Part shown: piece after piece, positions 8,038 to 19,410 of the stretch
How the letters are laid out: every line of letters begins with the position of its first letter
How positions within the stretch are numbered: the first letter of the stretch is position 1
DNA from: a virus
DNA length: 21,275 nt
Virus record (IMG/VR): IMGVR_UViG_3300030085_001969
Location: 1-21,275 of that record
Direction: 5' to 3' (one strand)
Translations under genes and position numbers: made by a program
Notes under the pieces: generated by a model
Seen by the model: only the letters and a program-made list of their open reading frames with translations
Databases searched by the model: none
What the model was told of the DNA's origin: nothing

Positions 8038-8671
8038 GGTCTATGGCGCTCTGCGTAAACGGCTTGGCCAATGCCGCTTTGAGTTTGACGTAGCGACACC
8101 AGCGCAGGCGATCAAAGCACTATGCGTAAACTTTCCAGGCTTGGAAAAGTGGTTAATTGACAGCGAAAAGGACGGTATTGGCTATCGAGTAACGGTAGGC
8201 AAAGAAAAGGCGACTGAAGATAATTTGCTTCCTTTGGTCATGCCTTTCAGTGATCGTGAAGTCTTCAGCATCACGCCTGTAGTCGCTGGTGCCGGTCGCG
8301 GGGTTGGTCAAATTTTGCTTGGAGCTGCGTTGATTGTTGCAGGCATCTATTTGGCTCCAGCTGCGTCTCTGGGTGGAGGATTTTTAAAGGCAGGCGCCGC
8401 TGCTACCAGTTTGAGCACCATGGGCTATGTAAGCCTTGCAGTAGGAAATCTTGGTATTGCTTTAGCGCTAGGAGGCATTGCTCAAGCAATTTCTCCTCAG
8501 CCTGAACTAAACAGCACGTTGGATGAGGCGGCTCAGCTTGAGTCTTTCAGCCTCTCCAATGTCGTCAACACCAGTCGCCAGGGCATGCCTTGCCCAATAG
8601 CCTACGGAAGGGTATTCGTTGGATCGGCGGTGCTATCCAGCGGCCTCGACGTTGATCAGGTGCGGGCATGA
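8024..8671 (+). CDS. Tail assembly protein, lambda gpI-like
   Basis: I choose the ATG at 8024 (215 residues, beginning KVVKVYGALRKRLGQ). The same frame is open from 7910, but that would put over 100 bases inside the gpK-like gene. From 8024 the overlap is only 14 bases and the protein begins at the conserved family N-terminus. Residues 1-~75 look like the ubiquitin-like domain of gpI (YGALRKRL, ATPAQAIKALCVNFPG). Two hydrophobic segments follow (~92-115 and ~130-155, QILLGAALIVAGIYLA and SLAVGNLGIALALGG). The JAMM protease followed by a ubiquitin-like partner is the known pairing in lambdoid tails. The protein is thought to act in tip assembly and possibly DNA injection. Confidence 0.88.
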   Translation: MKVVKVYGALRKRLGQCRFEFDVATPAQAIKALCVNFPGLEKWLIDSEKDGIGYRVTVGKEKATEDNLLPLVMPFSDREVFSITPVVAGAGRGVGQILLGAALIVAGIYLAPAASLGGGFLKAGAAATSLSTMGYVSLAVGNLGIALALGGIAQAISPQPELNSTLDEAAQLESFSLSNVVNTSRQGMPCPIAYGRVFVGSAVLSSGLDVDQVRA

Positions 8672-11600
8672 CACAGACCAAATACGTTGTTGGCGCTGGT
8701 GGTGGTTGCTTTACTGGCGACACCCTAGTCTCTACGCCAAATGGTCAGGTACGCATTGATGAACTAAAAGAAGGCAGTGAAGTAATTAGTTTCGACGACA
8801 AAGCCAATACACATATTGCAAAGGTACTGAAAGTTCATGTCCACGAAAATGAACAGGTCTATCGGTATGGCTTTTGGGGGGATGAGTATGTAGATGCAAC
8901 ACCAAATCACTGGGTCTTAAATCAGTACAACGCATTTGTTGCGATTGGAAGCCTTGGATTTGATGACTGCTTAGTCGATGTCATGGGCCATCTCCGGCCA
9001 ATCACTAGTCGAAAAGATCTTGGCACAGCCACGGTCTACAACTTAACTGTAGAGCAGCAGCATACTTTTATCGCTAATAATATTCGTGTTCACAACGCTG
9101 GCATCGGCTTACGAGTCGCTGGCGCTGGTGGTGGTGGTGGCAAAGGCGGTGGTGGCAGCAGAAGCACTCCAACCGAGGCTGACGATACGCTTCAGTCAGT
9201 ACAGTTTGCAAACGTTGTCGATTTAATTAGTGAAGGAGAGATTGGCGGGCTAGATGATGGCAACAAGAGCATTTTTTTAGATGACACGCCGGTTGAAGCA
9301 GCTGACGGCAGCAATAACTTTGAGGGTTTCACAATTGCGACCAGGGTTGGAACGCAAACACAGACCCACCTTGCTGGACCTTTTAACGCAACAGAGCGAG
9401 AGACGGGAGTTTCTGTTGAGGTCACAAAGGATAACCCAGTAACTCGCAGCATTACAGACACAGACGTTGATCGCTTGCGTGTCACGCTAACGATTCCATC
9501 ACTGCAAATATTGGAAGATGACGGAGACATTGTCGGACACAGTGTTCAAATTAAAATTCAAATTCAGTACAACGGTGGTGGATATAACGACGTTATTAAC
9601 GACACGATCAGTGGCAAAAGCAGCAACCGGTATCAACGAGACTATTTAGTTGACTTAACTGGCAGCTTCCCTGTTGATGTCCGGGTAGTGCGTGTTAGCG
9701 CTGATGAAACAAGCGCAAAGCGTGCTAGCACTACAAATTTTCAGAGCTTTACAGAGATTATTGATGAGAAGTTTCGCTACCCAAACTCGGCATTAGTTGG
9801 CCTGCGGTTTGACTCACGTCAGTTCAATAGTGTTCCGAACCGCAAATACTTAATTCGTGGCATTAAGGTCAAGATTCCAAGCAATGCGACGGTAGACACG
9901 ACAACGCATCTGGGACGGATCACATACTCCGGCATTTGGGACGGCACGTTTCAAGCTGCAACGTGGACGAATGATCCAGCTTGGTGTCTATATGACTTGT
10001 TGATCAGCGAAAGGTATGGCGCAGGCGTGCCTGAGAGCACGCTTGATAAGTACGACTTCTTTGCGATCAGCCAATATTGCAACGAGCTTGTTGACAATGG
10101 AGCTGGTGGGCAGGAGCCGCGTTTTAGCCTCAACATGCTGATCAACAGCAGAGACGAGGTTTATAACGTCATCCAGCAGATGACTGCCATTTTCCGTGGC
10201 ATTGCCTATTACGGCGCTGGAACGTTGCAGCTGCTGCAGGACAAGCCGTCTGACCCGCAATATCTGCTCAGCCCTAGCAATGTTGTTGACGGCATTTTTC
10301 AATATCAGGGCACGTCCCAGAAAGCACGCCACACCGTTGCTGTTGTGGCTTGGCAGTCATACGACACCCGTGGTGATGTCGAATATGAATACGTTGAAGA
10401 CCATGATGCGGTCGCCAAGTACGGCATCATCAAAAAGGACATCAAAGCCGTTGGTTGTTACAGCCAAGGTCAAGCCAATCGCATTGGCAAATGGACTTTG
10501 CTGTCAGAGCAGAACCTAACTGAGACAATCCAGTTCAGCATTGGAATTGAAAGCGGCATTATCTTGCGACCTGGCATGGTTGTTGATATTGCTGACCCTG
10601 TTCGCGCTGGTAGGCGTCTTTCTGGTCGGGTCAAGCTTTCGACCACAACAAAAATCACTACAGATAGTGCCAATGGTTTAGTTACCGCTCTAGCTGCTGC
10701 AAACAATCCAAAGCTTTCAGTAATTCTGTCGACTGGGTTAGTCGAGCAAAGAGATGTGCCTGTTGGTGGTATCAAGCTCATAGGCGGCAAGGAAACTGCC
10801 TCTATTGGCAGGTTTGATCTTGAGACTGGCTCAGATGCCTTGTTGCTTGAAGATGGCGAAAGATATATGCAGCAAGGCACGACAGTCGCTGACGGCGCAG
10901 AAATTGACGTTGCCACTGCATTTAGCGAAGCACCTGTCACTGGATCAATTTTCTTGTTCCAAAATGACGAAATCCAATCTCAGCAATTTCGCGTTTTATC
11001 TGTAGCAGAAGGAGAAGGAGGAACTCTTGGCGTCAGTGCCATTGCTTATAACAGCACGATTTATGACGCGGTTGAAAAAGATCTCGAGCTTACTAATCGC
11101 GACATTAGCAATCTGTCGCTGATCCCCAATGCAGTTGACAGTATCAGTCTTGAAGAATTCTTATACGAAGAAGGCAGCAGCGTACATGTTGGCGCATCAA
11201 TTAGCTGGAACCACGATCGCGTCAATGTCAGTGAGTTTCGTGTTCAATATCGAATTGATAATGATAACTGGCAGGCTGTAGAAACATCTTCGCCGTCAGT
11301 CACTCTGCGAACACTGCGTGCAGGTCGCTTGTACGTCCAGATCCAAGCGAAAAACTCTTTAGGGAAAGGTAGTCAGATTACGGCCTCTAATTTTCAGTTA
11401 GTAGGCAAAACTGCTGCGCCAGCTGATGTGGCCAACTTCAGCATGATTCCTGTCAACGGGCAGGCACGTCTGACCTGGACGGAGGCTACTGATCTGGATG
11501 TCCGTGTTGGCGGTTATGTCCGCTTACGCCATTCGCCGAACTTGACGAGCGTTACTTGGCCAAATTCAACCAGCATTTCGGAACAGATCGCAGGCTCTGC

Positions 11601-12540
11601 GACTGAAGCGTACGCCGACCTTAAGCCTGGAACTTATAGCGCCAAGTTTGTTGATTCTGAGGGCCGCGAAAGCCTGAACGCCGCGTTAATTGAATTTACG
11701 AAACCTGACCTCCAAAGCGTTCAAGTTGTCGGTGCGTTGGGCTCTACAGAAGACCCATCGTTTAGCGGCATCAAAACCAATTTGGTTGTTGACGCCGTTA
11801 CCAATGAGCTGGAGCTGGGTGAGACAGGTAGCGAGCTGGCTGCTAGCGGAGATTTTGACCTTGAGGACGGTACTGCTTTGCTGCTTGAGGATGCAAGCAA
11901 CTATCAACTGCAAGGAGACAATGCATTGCACACGACGGGCGTTTATAAATTCAACGGCGGAAACGCTTTCGCTTTAAGCGATGTATTCAGCTTGAGGCTG
12001 AACAGCACGCTTCGTGCTCGCAGCTTCTTCCCATATGGAGAAAAAATCGACGATGAGCCTGACATTGATGCAGTGACTGACTTTGACGGTGCTGCGCCAA
12101 ACACTTGCGATGTAAAGCTGTTCATTCAAACAACGCAAGATGATCCAGCAGGCTCTCCGGCCTATACCAGCTTGCGTCGATTCAACAACGCAGAATTTAA
12201 AGCTCGTGCATTCAAGGTCGAAGCACACTTCAGCACTGGCGGCGGCCAAGAGCAGATTGCTGTTGATCAGCTGCGTATTCAAGCCGAAATGCCGATTCGG
12301 ACGGTAACCGGAACAGTGACGACCAGTACCAGCGCTGACGTGTCAGTGGCTTACGGGGCAGGCAATAGGTTCTATGTAACGCCTTCTGTAGGCATTGTTT
12401 TCACGACTAACGCATCAGGTGACTACTACGTCATCAGCAACTCGACGGCTACCGGATTTGATGTGTCGGTCTACAATTCCAGTAATAGCCGGATCGCCAA
12501 AGCGGTGAACTGGACTGCAACTGGCTACGGAATCGGCTGA
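8668..12540 (+). CDS. Tail tip / host-attachment protein, lambda gpJ-like, with inserted Hint domain
   Basis: The 1290-residue product starts in an ATGA overlap. Residues 1-13 are the native N-terminus (TQTKYVVGAGGG). Residues 14-143 are an intein-like Hint domain. Residues ~150-170 are the glycine-rich linker (GAGGGGGKGGGGS) common at gpJ N-termini, leading to EADDTLQSVQFANVVDLISEGEI, the conserved gpJ start. The central part (RFSLNMLINSRDEVYNVIQQM, GTLQLLQDKP) is the tip-attachment core. Two fibronectin type III-like domains lie near residues 824-921 and 922-1014. A DLE.G.ALLLEDG-type motif occurs twice (~716 and ~1063). The C-terminus probably contacts the host. If the Hint domain splices out, the mature protein would be about 1160 residues. 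Confidence 0.93.
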   Translation: MTQTKYVVGAGGGCFTGDTLVSTPNGQVRIDELKEGSEVISFDDKANTHIAKVLKVHVHENEQVYRYGFWGDEYVDATPNHWVLNQYNAFVAIGSLGFDDCLVDVMGHLRPITSRKDLGTATVYNLTVEQQHTFIANNIRVHNAGIGLRVAGAGGGGGKGGGGSRSTPTEADDTLQSVQFANVVDLISEGEIGGLDDGNKSIFLDDTPVEAADGSNNFEGFTIATRVGTQTQTHLAGPFNATERETGVSVEVTKDNPVTRSITDTDVDRLRVTLTIPSLQILEDDGDIVGHSVQIKIQIQYNGGGYNDVINDTISGKSSNRYQRDYLVDLTGSFPVDVRVVRVSADETSAKRASTTNFQSFTEIIDEKFRYPNSALVGLRFDSRQFNSVPNRKYLIRGIKVKIPSNATVDTTTHLGRITYSGIWDGTFQAATWTNDPAWCLYDLLISERYGAGVPESTLDKYDFFAISQYCNELVDNGAGGQEPRFSLNMLINSRDEVYNVIQQMTAIFRGIAYYGAGTLQLLQDKPSDPQYLLSPSNVVDGIFQYQGTSQKARHTVAVVAWQSYDTRGDVEYEYVEDHDAVAKYGIIKKDIKAVGCYSQGQANRIGKWTLLSEQNLTETIQFSIGIESGIILRPGMVVDIADPVRAGRRLSGRVKLSTTTKITTDSANGLVTALAAANNPKLSVILSTGLVEQRDVPVGGIKLIGGKETASIGRFDLETGSDALLLEDGERYMQQGTTVADGAEIDVATAFSEAPVTGSIFLFQNDEIQSQQFRVLSVAEGEGGTLGVSAIAYNSTIYDAVEKDLELTNRDISNLSLIPNAVDSISLEEFLYEEGSSVHVGASISWNHDRVNVSEFRVQYRIDNDNWQAVETSSPSVTLRTLRAGRLYVQIQAKNSLGKGSQITASNFQLVGKTAAPADVANFSMIPVNGQARLTWTEATDLDVRVGGYVRLRHSPNLTSVTWPNSTSISEQIAGSATEAYADLKPGTYSAKFVDSEGRESLNAALIEFTKPDLQSVQVVGALGSTEDPSFSGIKTNLVVDAVTNELELGETGSELAASGDFDLEDGTALLLEDASNYQLQGDNALHTTGVYKFNGGNAFALSDVFSLRLNSTLRARSFFPYGEKIDDEPDIDAVTDFDGAAPNTCDVKLFIQTTQDDPAGSPAYTSLRRFNNAEFKARAFKVEAHFSTGGGQEQIAVDQLRIQAEMPIRTVTGTVTTSTSADVSVAYGAGNRFYVTPSVGIVFTTNASGDYYVISNSTATGFDVSVYNSSNSRIAKAVNWTATGYGIG
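8686..9135 (+). repeat. 21-bp direct repeats bracketing the Hint domain
   Basis: The 21 bases at 8686-8706 (encoding VVGAGGG) match those at 9115-9135 (encoding VAGAGGG) with two differences. The last 16 bases are identical (TGGCGCTGGTGGTGGT). The offset is 429 bases, exactly 143 codons, so deleting one copy plus the domain would restore a continuous gpJ N-terminus VVGAGGGGGKGGGG. Glycine codon runs make partial matches easy, so the duplication is suggestive rather than proven. Confidence 0.7.
8707..9096 (+). other. Hint domain, mini-intein / bacterial intein-like (BIL type A-like)
   Basis: This covers residues 14-143 of the gpJ-like protein. It starts with C14 (CFTGDTLVSTPNG, then IDELKEGSEVISFDD, Hint block A). 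Block B is T78-P-N-H81. Block F is TVYNLTVEQQHTFIAN, and block G ends IRVH142-N143. These are the catalytic Cys, TxxH and terminal His-Asn of protein-splicing domains. At 130 residues there is no room for a homing endonuclease. The residue after N143 is Ala144, not Cys, Ser or Thr, so the normal transesterification step lacks its nucleophile. This is the hallmark of A-type BIL domains, which can cleave or splice by other routes. The outcome here is not known. Confidence 0.9.
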
Positions 12541-13691
12541 TGTCCTTCGTAAACGAGACAAAATCCACGCCGATCCAGAATGACACTGGAGCGAATGTCC
12601 GAGCGGACATCAACTCCAACATGGCTGCCATCTACAGCCTGAACGCCAGTTCGTCTGAACCTAGTGCTGCGAATTCAGTTGCTCGGATGATCTGGGCAGA
12701 CGAGAGCAATGACCTTCTAAAGATTAGAAACGGCACAAACACTTCATTTATCACCATTGGCTCTTTAAACGAGACCAATCTTGGACTAGCGACAAAAGCA
12801 AGCCCGACTTTCACCGGCAACGTTGGCGTGCCTGCCGGTACAGCTGGAGCGCCTTCACTTCGCAGATCCGACGACACGGACACAGGCATATTTTTTAGTG
12901 CTGGCAACACACTGGATATTTCAACCGGTGGGACGCGCCGCGCTTTTTTCGACACCAACGGGATTACCATCCGTGATCGCAAAGCGCTGAGGCTGCGGGA
13001 TACGAGTAACAGCAACTTTGTTGCAGTTCGCGCTCCAGACAATGTCACCAGTGATGTCACGCTGACTTTGCCTAGCACCGATGGCAACGCCAATGACGTA
13101 TTGCAGTCAGATGGCAGCGGCAATCTGAGCTTTGCTGCGTTGCCCCAAGCGGTGCCGACTGGATCGGTTCACATGATGGCGACGACTACTGCTCCCAGTG
13201 GTTATTTGAAATGCAACGGTGCTGCAGTCAGCCGGACAACTTACGCCGACCTGTTTGCGATTATTGGTACGACGCACGGTTCTGGTGACGGCAGCAGCAC
13301 CTTCAATGTTCCAGATCTACGCGGTGAATTTGTCCGTGGCTGGGACGATGCTCGTGGTGTGGACAGTGGCCGTAGTTTTGGCAGCTCGCAGTCAGACGCA
13401 AACAAGCAGCACAACCACACCGCATCAGCAACTACATCAATCAGCCCCTCTGACCACAATCACGTCTTCCCTGGTGACGACCAACTTGTAAACGCAAATG
13501 GCGTTGGTGGCTGGACGAACAGAATCACAGGGTCCTTTAACTACGACGCCAAGAGTCAAAGTGGTAACGGTAGGGTTTATCGCACCAGCGATGCGACCAT
13601 TACAGGCAGTACTTCTGTAACCGTGAATAATGATGGTGGCAGCGAGGCCAGACCGCGTAACATAGCAATGATGTACGTCATCAAAACGTAA
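12540..13691 (+). CDS. Tail fibre protein with tail-collar-like C-terminal domain
   Basis: The 383-residue product starts in a TGATG overlap with the gpJ-like stop. Residues 1-~90 contain a fibre N-terminus (TPIQNDTGANVRADINSNM, ATKASPTFTGNVGVP). Residues ~100-205 are short beta repeats (SDDTDTGIFFSAGNTLDIS, VTLTLPSTDGNANDVL). Residues ~209-274 match the phage tail collar pattern (APSGYLKCNGAAVSRTTYADLF, GSSTFNVPDLRGEFVRGWD). After this come two H-N-H motifs (H291/H293 and H306/H308), a kind of HxH site that binds metal in trimeric fibres such as T4 gp37. The C-terminus ends RPRNIAMMYVIKT, usual for collar-type fibres. It is probably a trimeric receptor-binding or fibre-joining protein. Confidence 0.88.
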   Translation: MSFVNETKSTPIQNDTGANVRADINSNMAAIYSLNASSSEPSAANSVARMIWADESNDLLKIRNGTNTSFITIGSLNETNLGLATKASPTFTGNVGVPAGTAGAPSLRRSDDTDTGIFFSAGNTLDISTGGTRRAFFDTNGITIRDRKALRLRDTSNSNFVAVRAPDNVTSDVTLTLPSTDGNANDVLQSDGSGNLSFAALPQAVPTGSVHMMATTTAPSGYLKCNGAAVSRTTYADLFAIIGTTHGSGDGSSTFNVPDLRGEFVRGWDDARGVDSGRSFGSSQSDANKQHNHTASATTSISPSDHNHVFPGDDQLVNANGVGGWTNRITGSFNYDAKSQSGNGRVYRTSDATITGSTSVTVNNDGGSEARPRNIAMMYVIKT

Positions 13692-13694
13692 GCC

Positions 13695-16600
13695 ATGGCC
13701 GACCGCAAAATTACTGAATTGTCTGCAATGGCTGCAGGCGATCAGGCCACGGGCGATTTGCTCACGGTCGTGGATGTCAGCGAGTCTGCTGCGGCCAATA
13801 AAAACAAGAAGATTACCGTTGAGGCTTTTGTCCAGGGGATCCCGGCAGACGCAAATGTCAACGGCGTCGATGTAGGACGTGGAGCGGGAGCTGTCGCGAC
13901 GAACACGGTTGTCGGCAAAGATGCTCTTGATGCAAATACTACGGGCTCCAATAACACGGCTATTGGCAACGCGGCTTTAACTAACAACACTGAAGGCGTT
14001 AACAATACTGCTGTCGGAAGAAACTCAGCTGCGACAATCACAGTAGGAGACGGCAATACGTCTCTCGGCAGTGGGTCATTAAGCCTTACTACTACCGCAG
14101 ACAACAACGTAGCCGTTGGATATGACAGCCTTTATTTCAACACTACAGGCGGGAACAATGTTGCAGTCGGCAAATCAGCTTTACAAGCAAACACAACTGC
14201 AAGTTCTAATGTTGCGGTGGGAGCACTTGCCTTAACCACCAACACCACTGGTGCTGCAAACACTGCTGTTGGCCAAGAAGCACTCGAAAAAAACACGACT
14301 GCTGGAAACAACACTGCTGTCGGACACCAGGCCTTAGAAGAAAACACTACTGGCCAAGAAAACACTGCTGTTGGTTCACTCGCTCTTGATGCGAATACAA
14401 CTGGCGGCAACAACACTGCCGTTGGCAGTCAATCTTTGGGAAACAATACTGGCGGTAGCAATACAGCAGTTGGCCGTGCTTCATTGAATGCTAATACAAC
14501 TGCCGACAACAATACAGCTGTTGGTCATAACTGCTTGTTGGATAACAGTACTGGTACACAAAATACAGCTGTTGGCTCTCTCGCCGCAGAAACCAATACA
14601 ACGGCTAGTTACAACACAGCTGTTGGCTATGCTTCCTTAAAGACAAACACTACTGGTGCTCAGAACACAGCAGTTGGCCGTGCTTCGTTGAACGCTAACA
14701 CAACTGCTAGTGACAATACTGCTGTCGGGAATAACGCAATGCTCGACAACACCACTGGCGAGCAAAATGTTGCTGTTGGCACTAATGCTCTTGATGCGAA
14801 TACCACTGCCAACAACAACACTGCGGTTGGCTATGTAGCCCTGACTGCAAATACAACTGGCACAAAAAATACTGCCGTCGGCGCAGGTGCTGCTGATGCA
14901 AATAGCACTGGAAATAACAATACGGCTTTAGGTTACGGAGCACTTAGTGCTAACACCACTGCTGGTGACAACACGGCTGTCGGCCATAAAGCTATGGACG
15001 CTAACACCACTGGCACGGATAACGTTGCTGTTGGTTCGTATGCTCTTGATGCAAACACCACCGCGAATGAGAATACTGCTGTTGGCTATCAAGCTTTAAC
15101 GGCAAACACTACAGGAGCAGCTAACACCGCTGTTGGCATGGGCGCATTGCGCGATAACACTACAGCCAATAACAACACAGGTGTTGGTCGAGAAGCGCTC
15201 AAGCTAAACACTACTGGCACGGAAAACGTTGCTGTTGGTTCTACTGCCCTTGACGCAAACACAAGTGGTGACAGAAATACTGCGGTTGGCACTTCAGCCA
15301 TGGGTAGCAATACCGGTGGCAGTGACAATACTGCCTGTGGCCGTGATGCTCTGTTTTCAAACACCACTGGCGGCAACAACACTGCGGTCGGGAAAAATTG
15401 TCTTGATGCAAATACAAGTGGTGACAACAATACTTCAGTCGGCATATCAGCTTTGCAGGCAAGCACCACTGGCAGTAGAAACACCGCGATTGGCGGTTTT
15501 GCGTTGGAGCAAAACACAACTGCAAATAACAACACTGCAGTCGGCTATGAATGTTTAGAGGCAAATACTACTGGCACATCAAACGTTGCTGTTGGTGCCT
15601 TCGCGCTAGATGACAGCACCACTGCAGACGACAACACTGCTGTTGGCTACAACTCTTTAACTAATAACCAGACTGGACACAGTAATGTTGCTGTAGGCAG
15701 ATCGGCATTGCAAAACAATACTGCGAACAACAATGTTGCTGTTGGATATTACGCTCTTGGCACAAACACCACTGGCACTGAAAACGTAGCCATTGGGCCG
15801 GGTTCTCTCGATGCAAACAGTACAGGAATTGAGAATACTGCTGTTGGATACTATTCCCTATCATCATGTACCACTGGCAGATTTAACACGGCAATCGGCA
15901 GAGATGCCATGTTGGACTGCACCACTGGTCAGCATAATGTTGCTCTTGGCGCAGACGCACTATATAAAAACACCACTGCGGCTCAAAATGTAGCTGTAGG
16001 TTATCAAGCGCTAGAAAATAATACGACAGGCGAATTTAACACTGCTGTAGGTTTCAGGGCTCTTGAGGCCAATCAAACATCCGATGGCAATGTGGCTGTT
16101 GGTAAACAGGCTTTGCAGTCCAACACCACCGGCAATCAAAACGTGGCTGTTGGCACGTTTACTGCCGATTCAATTACCACTGGAACCAGAAACGTCGCCA
16201 TAGGTCATGCGGCACTTGAGGCCAATCAAACCGTTACAGGCCTCACAGCCGTTGGTGCATATTGTTTGGATGCTAACTCCACTGGTGACGAAAATACTGG
16301 CGTAGGTTATTTAGCACTTAGCAGCAACACCACGGGCACTTACAACACTGCGATTGGAAGATCTGCTCTATATAACAACACGACTGCGAACCACAATACC
16401 GCCTGTGGTCGTGATGCTTTATTCAGCAATACAACGGGCGCTAGAAATACAGCAGTCGGTGCTGATTCACTTCAAATAAACACCACTGGAGGTGACAACA
16501 CTGCTGTTGGATATGACGCTTTAGACTCGTGTACCACTGGTGGCTCCAATACTGCTGTTGGAAGTGGTTCACTGCTAAATCTTTCGACAGGCGCGTATAA

Positions 16601-17249
16601 CACTGCTATAGGAGTAGGCGCTTTAGAAGATGTCACCACATCAGAGGATAATTCTGCTATTGGAAGGCTTGCAGGGCGCAACATTACAACAGGCGTCAGA
16701 AATACTTGCCTTGGTCATATTGCAGGTACCAACATTACAACAGGTGGTGACAACATTTGCATCGGCCATAACAATCAAATTAGTGCAGGAGGCGGAAGCC
16801 ATCAGATTGTTTTGGGCTCAGGTATTACTGGAAAAGGGGACAGCACATTCTTTATATCTTCAAGTTCAGGCGTTTACCACGGCGGCAACACGACTACTTG
16901 GTCTACAACTTCTGACCAACGCATCAAGAAAAACATCGTTGACAACAACGAAGGTCTTTCCCTGATCAATCAAATTGCAGTCAAAAACTTTGAGTACAAG
17001 ACATCAGCGGAGATTGAGTCTGACGGTGAGCTTCCTGGCAGCGAGGCAATCGGCGTGGAAGGCACGCAAATTGGTGTCATTGCTCAAGAACTGCAGCAAG
17101 TCCGCTCTAGCTGGGTGACGACACGGAACAACGGAACACTTTCAGTTACTGGCAGTGATGAAATCATGTGGCACCTGGTGAATTCCGTCCAAGAACTGTC
17201 GGCAGAAAATGAAGCACTCAAGGCTAGACTGGATGCTGCAGGCATCTGA
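13695..17249 (+). CDS. Giant YadA/Hep_Hag-like beta-roll tail fibre with peptidase S74 autochaperone
   Basis: The 1184-residue product starts 3 bases after the previous stop. Residues 1-~69 are a capping/attachment segment (ITELSAMAAGDQATGDLLTVVDVS), typical of fibre N-termini. Residues 70-1036 are 57 tandem units with consensus NTAVGxxALxxNTTGxx, a YadA-head or haemagglutinin-type left-handed beta-roll that should trimerise. Residues ~1037-1184 are the intramolecular chaperone: TTSDQRIKKNI contains S1073 and K1078 in the S-D-x-R-x-K spacing of peptidase S74, followed by IGVIAQELQQV and a C-terminal coiled coil (QELSAENEALKARL). Self-cleavage before S1073 would release a 112-residue chaperone. 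The gene probably encodes a long side or tip fibre that binds the host surface. Confidence 0.92.
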   Translation: MADRKITELSAMAAGDQATGDLLTVVDVSESAAANKNKKITVEAFVQGIPADANVNGVDVGRGAGAVATNTVVGKDALDANTTGSNNTAIGNAALTNNTEGVNNTAVGRNSAATITVGDGNTSLGSGSLSLTTTADNNVAVGYDSLYFNTTGGNNVAVGKSALQANTTASSNVAVGALALTTNTTGAANTAVGQEALEKNTTAGNNTAVGHQALEENTTGQENTAVGSLALDANTTGGNNTAVGSQSLGNNTGGSNTAVGRASLNANTTADNNTAVGHNCLLDNSTGTQNTAVGSLAAETNTTASYNTAVGYASLKTNTTGAQNTAVGRASLNANTTASDNTAVGNNAMLDNTTGEQNVAVGTNALDANTTANNNTAVGYVALTANTTGTKNTAVGAGAADANSTGNNNTALGYGALSANTTAGDNTAVGHKAMDANTTGTDNVAVGSYALDANTTANENTAVGYQALTANTTGAANTAVGMGALRDNTTANNNTGVGREALKLNTTGTENVAVGSTALDANTSGDRNTAVGTSAMGSNTGGSDNTACGRDALFSNTTGGNNTAVGKNCLDANTSGDNNTSVGISALQASTTGSRNTAIGGFALEQNTTANNNTAVGYECLEANTTGTSNVAVGAFALDDSTTADDNTAVGYNSLTNNQTGHSNVAVGRSALQNNTANNNVAVGYYALGTNTTGTENVAIGPGSLDANSTGIENTAVGYYSLSSCTTGRFNTAIGRDAMLDCTTGQHNVALGADALYKNTTAAQNVAVGYQALENNTTGEFNTAVGFRALEANQTSDGNVAVGKQALQSNTTGNQNVAVGTFTADSITTGTRNVAIGHAALEANQTVTGLTAVGAYCLDANSTGDENTGVGYLALSSNTTGTYNTAIGRSALYNNTTANHNTACGRDALFSNTTGARNTAVGADSLQINTTGGDNTAVGYDALDSCTTGGSNTAVGSGSLLNLSTGAYNTAIGVGALEDVTTSEDNSAIGRLAGRNITTGVRNTCLGHIAGTNITTGGDNICIGHNNQISAGGGSHQIVLGSGITGKGDSTFFISSSSGVYHGGNTTTWSTTSDQRIKKNIVDNNEGLSLINQIAVKNFEYKTSAEIESDGELPGSEAIGVEGTQIGVIAQELQQVRSSWVTTRNNGTLSVTGSDEIMWHLVNSVQELSAENEALKARLDAAGI
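13902..16802 (+). repeat. 57 tandem 17-residue (51-base) coding repeats
   Basis: Counting from AACACGGTT at 13902, I find 57 units. Fifty-five are 17 codons long and two (units 11 and 36) are 16 codons, which ends exactly at 16802. NTTG and NTTA turns tend to alternate in units 12-26, suggesting a 34-residue double unit. Units 12-15 resemble units 16-19, suggesting block duplications of four. Third-codon positions differ widely between units, so the array is old rather than a recent slippage product. Cysteines recur at unit position 8 or 12 in about a dozen units. Confidence 0.93.
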
Positions 17250-17269
17250 CCTCTACTTTTCACAGAACA

Positions 17270-17500
17270 ATGCCCGATCAAGAAACTCTGACTGCTGAAG
17301 AAATCCAGGCTCATTACAATGCCGCTCTGGATTCAGTCACGCTCATCAATGAGCTGGTGGCCTTGGACAGTCTTGACGACGAGCAGACTGCAACTGTTGC
17401 CCGCAACGTCGAGCACCTGCAGATCATGGTCGCCAAGGACTACTGGACTTCTGACCAACCCATGGCACCTCTGAACGCTGCCATCACCGCCGGTTCTTGA
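17270..17500 (+). CDS. Small acidic helical protein downstream of the fibre gene
   Basis: The 76-residue product begins 20 bases after the fibre stop. It is acidic and mostly helical (LTAEEIQAHYNAALDSVTLI, NELVALDSLDDEQTATVARN), ending AKDYWTSDQPMAPLNAAITAG. There is no signal peptide or membrane segment. Genes of this kind, with a closing KD(Y/F)W...PL..AI motif, are familiar to me as uncharacterised phage proteins near structural genes. A fibre-assembly role is possible from position but not shown. The stop overlaps the next ATG (TGATG), so the two are probably co-translated. Confidence 0.75.
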   Translation: MPDQETLTAEEIQAHYNAALDSVTLINELVALDSLDDEQTATVARNVEHLQIMVAKDYWTSDQPMAPLNAAITAGS

Positions 17501-17679
17501 TGCAACGCCCTGACCCGATGATCGCCTCCAAGCCGGGGGCGTCTGACGTAGAGGCTATGGACAACCGAGTCAAATGGCTCAACGAGCTGTACCTCTACGA
17601 CGGTCGCGATAAGCGTGACCATCCCATGCATGGCATTTACACGGGCCTTGCTCAGAAATATCAGCAATTCGCAAGCTAA
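17500..17679 (+). CDS. Small protein of unknown function
   Basis: I choose the ATG at 17500 (59 residues), which overlaps the previous stop by one base (TGATG). A TTG one codon upstream is also in frame. The C-terminal half holds the recognisable part: MDNRVKWLNELYLYDGRDKR followed by HPMHGIYTGL. No known domain is evident. It sits in a tight chain of small genes with one-base overlaps on both sides (TGATG before, TAATG after), which supports it being a real gene. Confidence 0.72.
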   Translation: MQRPDPMIASKPGASDVEAMDNRVKWLNELYLYDGRDKRDHPMHGIYTGLAQKYQQFAS

Positions 17680-17804
17680 TGGCTAAGTCACTTAGTGGGC
17701 ACAATTTTGTGCCTAGCAAGCCTAAAAAGACTCGTCAAGGGGATGGATCACATTCAAAACCGTCCCATGGACGAAAGAAGTATCGTGGCCAGGGAAAACG
17801 CTAA
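17679..17804 (+). CDS. Short basic protein, 41 residues, cyanophage-type
   Basis: The ATG overlaps the previous stop (TAATG) and the frame ends at TAA 17802-17804. The product starts MAKSLSGHNFVPSKPKKTRQG and ends HGRKKYRGQGKR. It is strongly basic, with about a dozen Lys/Arg and several Gly/Ser/His, and looks disordered. Short proteins with KKTRQG and a terminal YRGQG motif are, as I recall, widespread in cyanophage genomes and uncharacterised. A nucleic-acid-binding or packaging-related role would suit the charge, but that is inference. It is short enough to be missed by automatic gene calling. Confidence 0.8.
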   Translation: MAKSLSGHNFVPSKPKKTRQGDGSHSKPSHGRKKYRGQGKR

Positions 17805-17815
17805 TTCTTCTCCAA

Positions 17816-18160
17816 ATGATCAAGCGTCTTGTTTTTGGTGTAGCCGCTGGCGCACTTGCCTTGGCTCCCCTCTCTGCCCGCGCAGATGAGGGATTTTATG
17901 TGAACCCCGAGATCAACATCGGCGTTGGCACTGAGACCGGCGTGGGTGGTGCTGTCACCGACCTGCATGTTGGTTACGAGTTTTCCAATGGTGCTTATGC
18001 ACAGATTGGCCCAAGCCTCGTAACGCCTGACACTGGCGATTCTGAGATTGAATTCTCAGGCAAGGCTGGCATTAGCGGTGGCCCTCTGTACGGTGAGCTT
18101 TCATTCGCTACTGGCGACACCGAAACCACCGGTAACGTGAAGATTGGCGCTCGCTTCTGA
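17816..18160 (+). CDS. Exported beta-rich protein with signal peptide (outer-membrane-like)
   Basis: The 114-residue product has a clear signal peptide: basic start (MIKR), hydrophobic core (LVFGVAAGALALAPLS) and an ARA cleavage site, so the mature protein should begin at D24 (DEGFYVNPEI). The mature part is glycine-rich with alternating strands (NIGVGTETGVGGAVTDLHVG, GEVEFSGKAG-like and GELSFATGDT motifs) and ends in KIGARF. A terminal Phe is typical of outer-membrane beta-barrel strands. At ~91 mature residues it could form at most a small barrel or part of one. It probably acts in the periplasm or outer membrane of the infected cell. A role in superinfection exclusion or lysis is speculation. 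A terminator follows. Confidence 0.8.
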   Translation: MIKRLVFGVAAGALALAPLSARADEGFYVNPEINIGVGTETGVGGAVTDLHVGYEFSNGAYAQIGPSLVTPDTGDSEIEFSGKAGISGGPLYGELSFATGDTETTGNVKIGARF

Positions 18161-18674: not shown

Positions 18675-18889
18675 GCGATCAAGTCAACTCACCAGCGCAC
18701 TACACCAAGGGTCGCGTCGAAGCTATCGAGGTGATCGAAGATGTAGTCGCTGGTGCGCCTGATGCTGTCACTGGATATCTCGTCGGTCAAACGATGAAGT
18801 ATCTGCTGCGTGCATGGCATAAAGGCAACGCGGTACAGGACTTGCAGAAAGCTGCTTGGTATTTAAATCGTGCAATTGATCGCCAATGA
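18671..18889 (+). CDS. DUF3310-family protein
   Basis: The 72-residue product starts at GTG in a 4-base overlap (GTGA). It shows the DUF3310 pattern: VNSPAHYTKGRVEAIEVIED, then a middle stretch with TGYLVGQTMKYLLRAWHKGN and a last helix AVQDLQKAAWYLNRAID. The family is common in phages, often near nucleotide metabolism genes, and is annotated as a possible SaV-like or nucleotide-kinase-linked protein. Its biochemical function is not established. The stop overlaps the following ATG by 4 bases. Confidence 0.9.
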   Translation: MSDQVNSPAHYTKGRVEAIEVIEDVVAGAPDAVTGYLVGQTMKYLLRAWHKGNAVQDLQKAAWYLNRAIDRQ

Positions 18890-19410
18890 AGATTCAGGTG
18901 TTTGACGGCCAGGTGCCTTTCGCGGCTCGCGAGAAGGCTCTGGACTATTGCTCTCGGACCAACTTTATTCTTGGCTGGACTGACCGGCCTGGTGTTGACC
19001 ACGAAAAGGCTGTGCCAAACGTGCATGCCTCTTGGTCTCAGGAGCAGTTAGACGCCAGTGGCATCTTCACCTATATCGCTCCATGCATTGAAGAGACGGC
19101 CTTTTTCACGTCTCGACGGATTGAGCAGGTAGTTGTCAATCTTGTGCGTCCTACAGACGTGCATTACGTCCATTCACATCCTGGCAAGCAGGTTGCGCTG
19201 TACTACTGCAACCTTGACTGGGAAGACGGTTGGTATGGAGAGACCTTGTTTCATGACCCGAGGGATTTAAGCAGGATCAACTTCACGTCGCCTTACACGC
19301 CAGGCAGGATCATTCTGTTTGACGGCAATATTCCCCATGCAATTAGGCCGCAGTCAGTAAACGGGCCTAAGTACCGCATTTCGCTGACTGTGCTGTTTTG
19401 CGAGGATTAG
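18886..19410 (+). CDS. 2OG-Fe(II) oxygenase-like protein
   Basis: The 174-residue product starts in an ATGA overlap. The second half is a double-stranded beta-helix of the prolyl-4-hydroxylase-like type: VHYVHSHPGKQVALYYCNL, GWYGETLFHD, YTPGRIILFDGNIPHAI and a final YRISLTVLF. The distal Fe ligand is probably H151 and a 2OG-binding basic residue probably R164. The proximal motif reads H96-S-H98 instead of the usual HxD/E. D91 or H93 could be involved, so the metal site needs a structure model. Such oxygenases are frequent in cyanophages, with unknown substrates. It is the last gene of the + strand run before a hairpin. Confidence 0.82.
   Translation: MKIQVFDGQVPFAAREKALDYCSRTNFILGWTDRPGVDHEKAVPNVHASWSQEQLDASGIFTYIAPCIEETAFFTSRRIEQVVVNLVRPTDVHYVHSHPGKQVALYYCNLDWEDGWYGETLFHDPRDLSRINFTSPYTPGRIILFDGNIPHAIRPQSVNGPKYRISLTVLFCED

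Follow-up and report, generated by a model that had tools for sequence, protein, structure and literature searches.

A 1,184-residue open reading frame (ORF) in the viral DNA IMGVR_UViG_3300030085_001969 (21,275 nucleotides of a 28,458-base virus record; hereafter, the window, i.e., this whole stretch) probably encodes the distal fibre of a lambda-like phage, in which 57 repeat units would build a trimeric beta-roll rod under contact rules between neighbouring units, and which would be exchanged between phages as a cassette. We regard this combination as the best explanation of the data as a whole and hold it with good, although not full, confidence. The observation at its centre is that the alternation of two turn types along the repeat array is chiefly a nearest-neighbour exclusion, not a period.

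The count of 57 units of mostly 17 residues at 13902-16802, made earlier from the letters of the window in what we call the preliminary description, proved exact, and both 16-residue units named there (11 and 36) were found. Position 5 of the unit is Gly in all 57 units, position 1 is Asn in 56, and position 15 is Gly in 39 and Ala in 15. No two units with Ala at position 15 (Ala15) are adjacent (P 0.007 under random placement), and 9 of the 14 spacings between them equal 2 (permutation P 0.00013); the reported alternation of NTTG and NTTA turns is thus above chance. A two-unit period of whole units, proposed along with it, found no support, the similarity at lag 2 (i.e., between units two apart) having z 1.0 for protein and 0.85 for DNA over units 4-53. 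Of the proposed four-unit periodicity a weak signal at lag 4 remains (protein z 2.6, DNA z 1.9; uncorrected for the 16 lags tried), which lag 13 equals in strength (z 2.4 and 2.8). The 16-residue units lack one turn residue (Thr14 in the alignment used); since 219 of the 4,990 spacings in the scanned arrays are of 16 residues, such units are ordinary, and nothing singles out units 11 and 36 as the kinks they had been suggested to be.

Four sets of arrays were compared. Set 1 (44 arrays, 1,462 units, the window included) was drawn from loci found by the tail tip protein J, by the C-terminal S74 tail of the fibre and by the fibre N-terminus, the N-terminal query containing the first 13 residues of unit 1. 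In IMG/VR, 528 pattern-matched stretches encode a relative of the repeat segment, and set 2 (59 arrays, 2,645 units) comes from the best 80 of the 528 matching window units 12-32. It should be noted that set 2, being chosen by similarity to these units, is possibly biased toward the same alternation; for this reason, our claims rest on sets 1 and 4. Set 3 (23 arrays, 737 units) comes from bacterial genome contigs, and set 4 (53 arrays, 1,621 units) was taken from the 80 top-ranking loci of a search for the family of a 76-residue partner gene described below. Arrays of fewer than 12 units were dropped, as was any array with more than 20% of its exact two-unit strings in common with an array retained before it. 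Sets 1 and 2 were also reduced to 90 representatives by joining clusters above 60% identity (the highest identity of an array pair is 65%). The unit-calling profile was trained on the 17-residue units of the window and favours similar units; spacings other than 17 break runs, and pairs across 16-residue units are uncounted. Unless stated otherwise, whole units were shuffled within each array to obtain the expectations, and counts are given as observed/expected.

Neighbouring Ala15 units are strongly depleted in set 1 without the window (43 arrays; 17/57.1, z -6.8), in set 4 (53 arrays; 19/52.1, z -5.6) and in set 2 (59 arrays; 28/178.5, z -15.1). Among the 90 representatives the count is 44/198.8, and of those with an expectation of at least 0.5, 67 arrays fall below it and 7 above. 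After one non-Ala unit, the hazard of meeting the next Ala stays close to level over successive units (0.50, 0.49, 0.51, 0.53 in set 2; 0.50, 0.42, 0.47, 0.39 in set 1). When the neighbour count and the Ala count per 10 units are both fixed, lags 3 and 5-8 show no excess in sets 1 and 2. The flat hazard and the exclusion models together indicate that exclusion is the main rule, with some additional preference for the order A-G-A in sets 1 and 2. A strict two-unit period was rejected as the main cause on the same grounds, with a residual lag-2 preference persisting.

Several results weigh against exclusion as a complete and general account. With the neighbour count alone fixed, an excess of Ala15 persists at lags 2 and 4-9 (z 2.2-8.4); when the Ala count per 10 units is held constant too, sets 1 and 2 keep lag 2 (313/258, z 6.0) and lag 4 (z 2.6), and in set 4 lag 2 stands at 55/45 by plain shuffling. 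Exclusion is not significant in the 23 bacterial arrays of set 3, where Ala15 is rare (1/3.6, P 0.09), and a control of 14-residue bacterial YadA heads (32 arrays, 375 units, 299 lag-1 pairs) was too small and gave nothing clear.

A likely basis for the exclusion is found at position 16. An Ala unit that follows a Gly unit carries Ser, Asp or Asn at position 16 in 83% (set 1) and 84% (set 2) of cases. A Gly unit carries Ala or Thr there in 58% (set 1) and 61% (set 2) of cases when it follows an Ala unit, and in 20% and 25%, respectively, when it follows another Gly unit. The succession of Ala15 by Ala/Thr16 amounts to 147/69.6 in set 1 without the window, 125/66.4 in set 4 and 9/3.55 in the window alone (P 0.0008). 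Ala15 would thus go with Ser, Asp or Asn at position 16 of its own unit, the next unit preferring Ala or Thr; if both units were Ala, the demands on position 16 would conflict, so that consecutive Ala turns are disfavoured and alternation follows. The conflict is probably steric.

This rule is one of several that act between neighbours. In all four sets, columns are coupled much more strongly at lag 1 than at lag 2 or lag 3, as expected of one coil per unit. Sets 1, 2 and 4 share the strong lag-1 pairs (10,10), (12,12), (9,3), (11,10), (12,3) and (13,14); pairs within one column include (10,10), (12,12) and (16,16). At position 10 of set 2, Asp is followed in excess by Gly (180/56), Thr (139/52) and Ser (110/37), and Asp followed by Asp (23/94) or Glu (2/28) is depleted. 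The succession of Asp10 by Gly, Thr or Ser reaches 125/35.8 in set 1 without the window and 109/32.8 in set 4; in the window alone it is 9/2.88, a level attained by none of 5,000 shuffles. Position 12 of set 2 prefers like neighbours, Asn on Asn and aliphatic on aliphatic, in the manner of a ladder. The pair (9,3) shows compensation of size in the same set, Leu9 going with Ala3 and Gly9 with Phe3 or Leu3, and in sets 1 and 2 opposite charges pair at (7,7), (11,11) and (17,17).

The fibre gene and its partner are laid out as follows (AF2, AlphaFold2).
13695-17249, plus strand: tail fibre ORF, 1,184 residues, matching PHROG tail/virion families 23837, 6002, 4636 and 1980
13695-13901, plus strand: N-terminal region, residues 1-69; nucleotide matches of relatives commonly end within it, at 13816 or 13822, and blastp shows about its first 42 residues to be shared
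13902-16802, plus strand: 57 units, residues 70-1036, consensus NTAVGxxALxxNTTGxx, 55 of 17 residues and 2 of 16
14412-14459, plus strand: unit 11, 16 residues, one turn residue missing
15684-15731, plus strand: unit 36, 16 residues, one turn residue missing
16803-16910, plus strand: link of 36 residues between the last unit and S74
16911-17117, plus strand: Peptidase_S74 (PF13884), endosialidase-type intramolecular chaperone, residues 1073-1141
17154-17237, plus strand: long C-terminal helix, residues 1154-1181, in the AF2 model of residues 680-1184
17270-17500, plus strand: partner ORF of 76 residues, an unnamed conserved family linked to this fibre type

The C-terminus matches PF13884 with E 8.6e-10 (39.2 bits, cut-off 22), and S, D, R and K of its SDxRxK motif are invariant across 32 aligned tails; the fibre thus carries the C-terminal domain typical of S74 intramolecular-chaperone fibres. 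The array matches PHROG families 23837 (E 1e-190), 6002 (E 8e-180) and 4636 (E 7e-159); the likeness consists in these strong matches, and the families carry names only (virion structural, tail spike).

We consider the rod best read as a YadA-like roll, i.e., a relative of the YadA beta-roll that has 17-residue units and is joined to S74. AF2 models were made for two single-chain segments: residues 680-1184 (model A2; 32-row alignment; mean predicted local distance difference test score (pLDDT) 78.5, predicted template modelling score (pTM) 0.62) and units 12-35 (model A1; 63 rows; pLDDT 72.9, pTM 0.64). In both, each unit forms one coil, with a strand at positions 2-4 and usually another at 11-12. 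Structural alignment with VIA-align superposed the YadA-like head BoaA on residues 223-381 of A2 (Z 13.2, root-mean-square deviation (rmsd) 2.6, 129 residues) and on residues 2-177 of A1 (Z 13.5, rmsd 3.0, 132/155 residues, 30% identity). Foldseek against the PDB returned S74-type chaperones as its best matches (7dc3, E 1.1e-3; 3gw6 and 3gud weaker), and the BFVD matches listed were YadA-like and S74 proteins from giant viruses as well as from phages. A sequence comparison with solved chains gave no match to the fibre at E up to 0.01, and the repeat profile has one weak match among solved structures (7ar9, E 0.03).

The structural evidence has its own counterweights. Both segments were modelled as single chains, and the five models of each differ (mean pLDDT 62-79 for A2 and 57-73 for A1); the Foldseek match to BoaA (3s6l) is weak (E 2.8). 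In addition, residues 206-381 of A2 and 2-177 of A1 match BoaA or LpxD, which we take to be left-handed helices, and the remaining stretches (1-207 of A2, Z up to 10.7; 171-408 of A1, Z up to 16.3) match other helices, presumably right-handed, so that handedness appears to change within each kept model. Of the YadA-like beta-roll proposed in the preliminary description, the single coil per unit and the resemblance of part of the rod to BoaA are supported.

The known YadA-like heads (BoaA 3S6L and BpaC) share with the fibre one coil per unit, a conserved Gly, an Asn ladder and variable outer positions; in the array, Gly5 in every unit, the 17-residue strand period and the lag-1 coupling correspond to these features. 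An excerpt of PMC9543794 describes YadA-type rolls with 14-residue coils (mostly 15 in UspA1), a rise of 4.8 Å and a conserved Gly, and a three-layer expansion in BpaC. The units of 17 residues (two of 16) differ from a coil of 14, rarely 15, residues and are, as had been stated, longer than the classic repeat. At the BpaC rise of 4.8 Å per layer (PMC9543794), the rod would measure about 27 nm, within the 25-30 nm estimated earlier. The YadA_head model PF05658 has no match at E up to 10 in either the array segment or the full-length protein (HMMER filters drop most matches above about 0.1), and the same model does find bacterial YadA heads. Unlike trimeric autotransporter adhesins, the fibre ends in S74 in place of a YadA membrane anchor: a C-terminal anchor of that type was not found, S74 being the sole Pfam match when the full-length protein is searched at E up to 10.

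The union of a YadA-like roll with S74 is already reported in a marine phage. The Figure 3 legend of Mizuno et al. 2014 (PMC3909814) names YadA-like (3S6L_A) and S74 parts in a pelagiphage tail fibre, and the related portion of the article describes a conserved N-terminus, repeats and a variable distal part proposed to bind the host, and states neither the length or number of units nor neighbour rules; the architecture is the same, and its N-terminus is T7-like, unlike that of the lambda-like, J-bearing phage here. Excerpts of PMC6224464, PMC12220804, PMC7029224 and PMC12906663 mention YadA-named proteins in other viruses. One of them, ORF108 of S-TIM4, is given in PMC6224464 as a YadA-named fibre mutated in laboratory evolution; we dropped it as functional evidence, since the unit scan gave six scattered weak matches and no array. 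In the open-licence literature, judged mostly by title and the start of the abstract, we recognised no account of the neighbour rules of this repeat.

The distal part of the fibre appears to move between phages. Many relatives with 65-90% identity in J lose nucleotide similarity to the window near 13816-13822. The similarity resumes at 17496-17500 in nine loci (L004, L007, L026, L040, L045, L051, L059, L065 and L140); in other relatives the similarity resumes later, or the sequence ends first. The first ~42 fibre residues are common to J-matched relatives with differing distal parts. An N-terminus at least 55% identical was found in 37 ORF rows (the window included, a few contigs counted twice), three of which have an array in the same ORF, namely the window, L002 and L137, the latter two running off their contig ends after 16 units. 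The 76-residue ORF ends where the similarity of relatives resumes. Its gene was found in 58 of 273 loci searched (the window's own L001 included, some contigs twice), and among the 80 top-ranking loci for its family, 63 contain an ORF with at least 8 units. DSV, RN..HL and W are invariant in 15 aligned rows of the family; PHROG gave no match to the ORF with E up to 1, and its only two Pfam matches are weak and below the cut-off. Because of where similarity stops and resumes, we suggest that the distal fibre and the 76-residue gene may be exchanged between phages as one cassette, a reading that draws on sequence comparison. Beside a partner 85% identical to that of the window, locus L311 also carries 57 units, with unit content that differs from the window's.

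Repeat number, which the preliminary description proposed to compare among relatives, varies: loci L082-L087 have 24, 59, 50, 36, 52 and 43 units (the ORF of L086 is cut at its start), with S74 tails 72-78% identical. Among cultured phages, Pelagibacter phage HTVC111P gp52, Methylophilales phage Venkman gp55 and Roseobacter phage CRP-1 gp37 have 32, 33 and 24 units of the same kind in phage backgrounds that differ from the window. A relative of the 76-residue gene lies one gene after the fibre in HTVC111P, directly after it in Venkman and before it in CRP-1; the S74 motif pattern did not match these three fibres. Fibres of this type are widespread: matches were found in 117 named phage records, and many of these phages have cyanobacteria or other marine organisms as hosts. 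For J, the 12 best matches to named phages show 28-37% identity and form a mixed group (phages of Rhizobium, Prochlorococcus, Pseudomonas, Klebsiella and Morganella), and the phage collection held no near DNA match of the window.

In the mechanism that we propose, this protein would be the distal tail fibre of a lambda-like phage, docked to the tail by its N-terminal ~42 residues. The 57 units would stack as a parallel beta-roll, one 17-residue coil each, with three chains most likely side by side as in YadA heads, and the S74 domain, judging from its family, would act as an intramolecular chaperone that drives folding of the trimer. Contact rules between neighbouring coils would hold the array together, with no part for recent duplication. 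Since just 36 residues separate rod and chaperone, the rod should contact the host through its tip or its variable faces (positions 6, 7, 10, 11, 16 and 17); adhesion by the putative rod is plausible. The rod could also be a spacer only, with binding carried out by J or by the collar fibre at 12540-13691. Rods of other fibres often act as spacers, and both proteins are present, the gene order being J-like tail tip protein, collar-domain fibre and then the fibre ORF. We recognised no separate receptor-binding domain in the link between rod and chaperone, and the distal part differs among relatives with J 65-90% identical, both of which argue against a pure spacer. We give that role a serious, although less than even, chance.

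A second type of coupling skips a layer. In the 90 representatives, Asp17 occurs with Lys or Arg at position 6 two units further on in 85/45.2 cases (z 6.7), and Lys/Arg17 with Lys/Arg6 is depleted at the same lag (13/39.6). The attraction is 26/13.4 in set 1 without the window and 21/9.4 in set 4, and the depletion 5/14.0 and 5/11.5, respectively. The reverse direction gave no signal in sets 1 and 2 (with expectation from array frequency) or in set 4. When the 289 column pairs are ranked for Asp going with Lys/Arg two units on, (17,6) comes first; by z, it is second among all column pairs at lag 2 in set 4. Other lag-2 associations in set 1 without the window and in set 4 are Ala15 to Asp10 (64/28.8 and 47/24.7), Ala15 to Ala/Ser6 (81/44.2 and 60/36.2) and Gly15 to Tyr6 (247/184.1 and 309/240.3). 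At lag 3, Glu17 goes with Lys/Arg6 in the representatives (82/34.5) and in the window alone (4/1.27, P 0.016). A general rule of lag 3 for Glu and lag 2 for Asp, striking in sets 1 and 2, was withdrawn when set 4 did not repeat it.

Positions 17 and 6 flank strand 2-4 in the AF2 models, and ordinary strand geometry would place them about 15-20 Å apart within one chain. Since they lie at opposite ends of this strand, a contact between chains of the trimer is the better reading, and layer-skipping couplings such as Asp17 with Lys/Arg6 most likely join different chains. That the pairing lies within one chain whose coils slant strongly, or that it arises indirectly from other couplings, seems unlikely to us: the lag-2 couplings (12,12) and, in set 4, (12,3) do resemble chained lag-1 effects, whereas the 17-to-6 coupling is charge-complementary, one-directional and top-ranked, and its two positions lie at opposite strand ends. 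A contact between chains must also accommodate contrary results: the window array has no Asp17 signal at lag 2 (2/1.76), being too small to show it; in set 4, Glu17 with Lys/Arg6 is 7/5.2 at lag 3 and rises at lag 2 instead (16/6.0), and Asp17 with Lys/Arg6 is also up at lag 4 (14/7.1).

The preliminary description had attributed the alternation to growth by duplication of two-unit or four-unit blocks, an origin we now regard as improbable. Some observations favour it. Units 12 and 16 resemble each other most (88% of residues, 82% of nucleotides), units 18 and 23 share 82% of residues, the lag-4 protein signal is that given above, and in sets 1 and 2 the Ala15 excess at lags 2 and 4 partly survives the exclusion models. 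The reported echo of units 12-15 in units 16-19 holds for this closest pair, and the whole blocks share only 69% of nucleotides. At the DNA level, Tandem Repeats Finder reported no tandem array, unit pairs share a mean 54% of bases (units 4-53), and identical residues use the same codon at a frequency of 0.389 versus 0.362 expected from codon use. The best four-unit block pair reaches 70% nucleotide identity (mean of all such pairs 53%, standard deviation 5%). Among 118 arrays of at least 20 units, a two-unit block pair of at least 90% nucleotide identity occurs in 2 and a four-unit pair in none. The nearly flat hazard of Ala spacings beyond 1 in sets 1 and 2, the lack of excess at lags 3 and 5-8 once exclusion and local density are modelled, and the slight lag-2 value of set 4 also speak against block growth. 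Recent block duplication was rejected on DNA identity and codon use; near-random codons and low block identity indicate that the array has either a long history or a high turnover and is not the product of fresh duplication. The most alike internal four-unit blocks were seen in two bacterial genome contigs, L257 and L250 (89% and 81% of nucleotides), above all phage arrays scanned. Locus L087 (3457-9176) has two consecutive ORFs of this kind, with 43 and 39 units, the second beginning with three near-identical units.

Selection against identical adjacent DNA, which would reduce slippage, is a very improbable cause of the differences between neighbours: it agrees with the low inter-unit DNA identity, and it is contradicted by the many Gly15-Gly15 neighbours (1,464 pairs, with a higher pooled expectation of 1,723), by columns that prefer alike neighbours (Asn12-Asn12, Ser8-Ser8) and by the chemical nature of the rules (charge pairs, size compensation), which act across different columns.

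Other features of the window lie outside the fibre gene. The J gene (8668-12540) contains a Hint or mini-intein-like domain at 8707-9099 (residues 14-144), within its Gly-rich N-terminus. TIGR01443 matches above its cut-off, TIGR01445 just below, and the Pfam models Intein_splicing and Hint below theirs. The domain occurs in 2 of the 75 relatives that hold the neighbouring part (L020 and L074, 92% identical); the other relatives printed read straight through. The residue after the domain is Ala, which is unusual for splicing at an intein-type domain. Downstream of the fibre are a small beta-barrel gene of Phage_OMP type (PF24653; 17816-18160) and a 2OG-Fe(II) oxygenase-like gene (18886-19410; Pfam below the cut-off, PHROG 81/274). 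Rfam gave no match in 12400-18000, and no tRNA was found in the window.

The neighbour rules drawn from the 156 arrays of sets 1, 2 and 4 explain a pattern that resembles duplication and is not duplication, and they supply testable contacts where single-chain prediction stays ambiguous. One further interpretation, for and against which we see about equal weight, is that the array is a self-avoiding protein lattice, in which each layer constrains the next and layer-skipping acid-base pairs set the stagger of the three chains. If so, the quaternary structure of a fibre would be readable from sequence statistics within single genes, and phages would be free to diversify the whole rod as long as the local rules hold. 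The cassette with its linked small gene would offer a handle on how phages swap the parts that contact their hosts.

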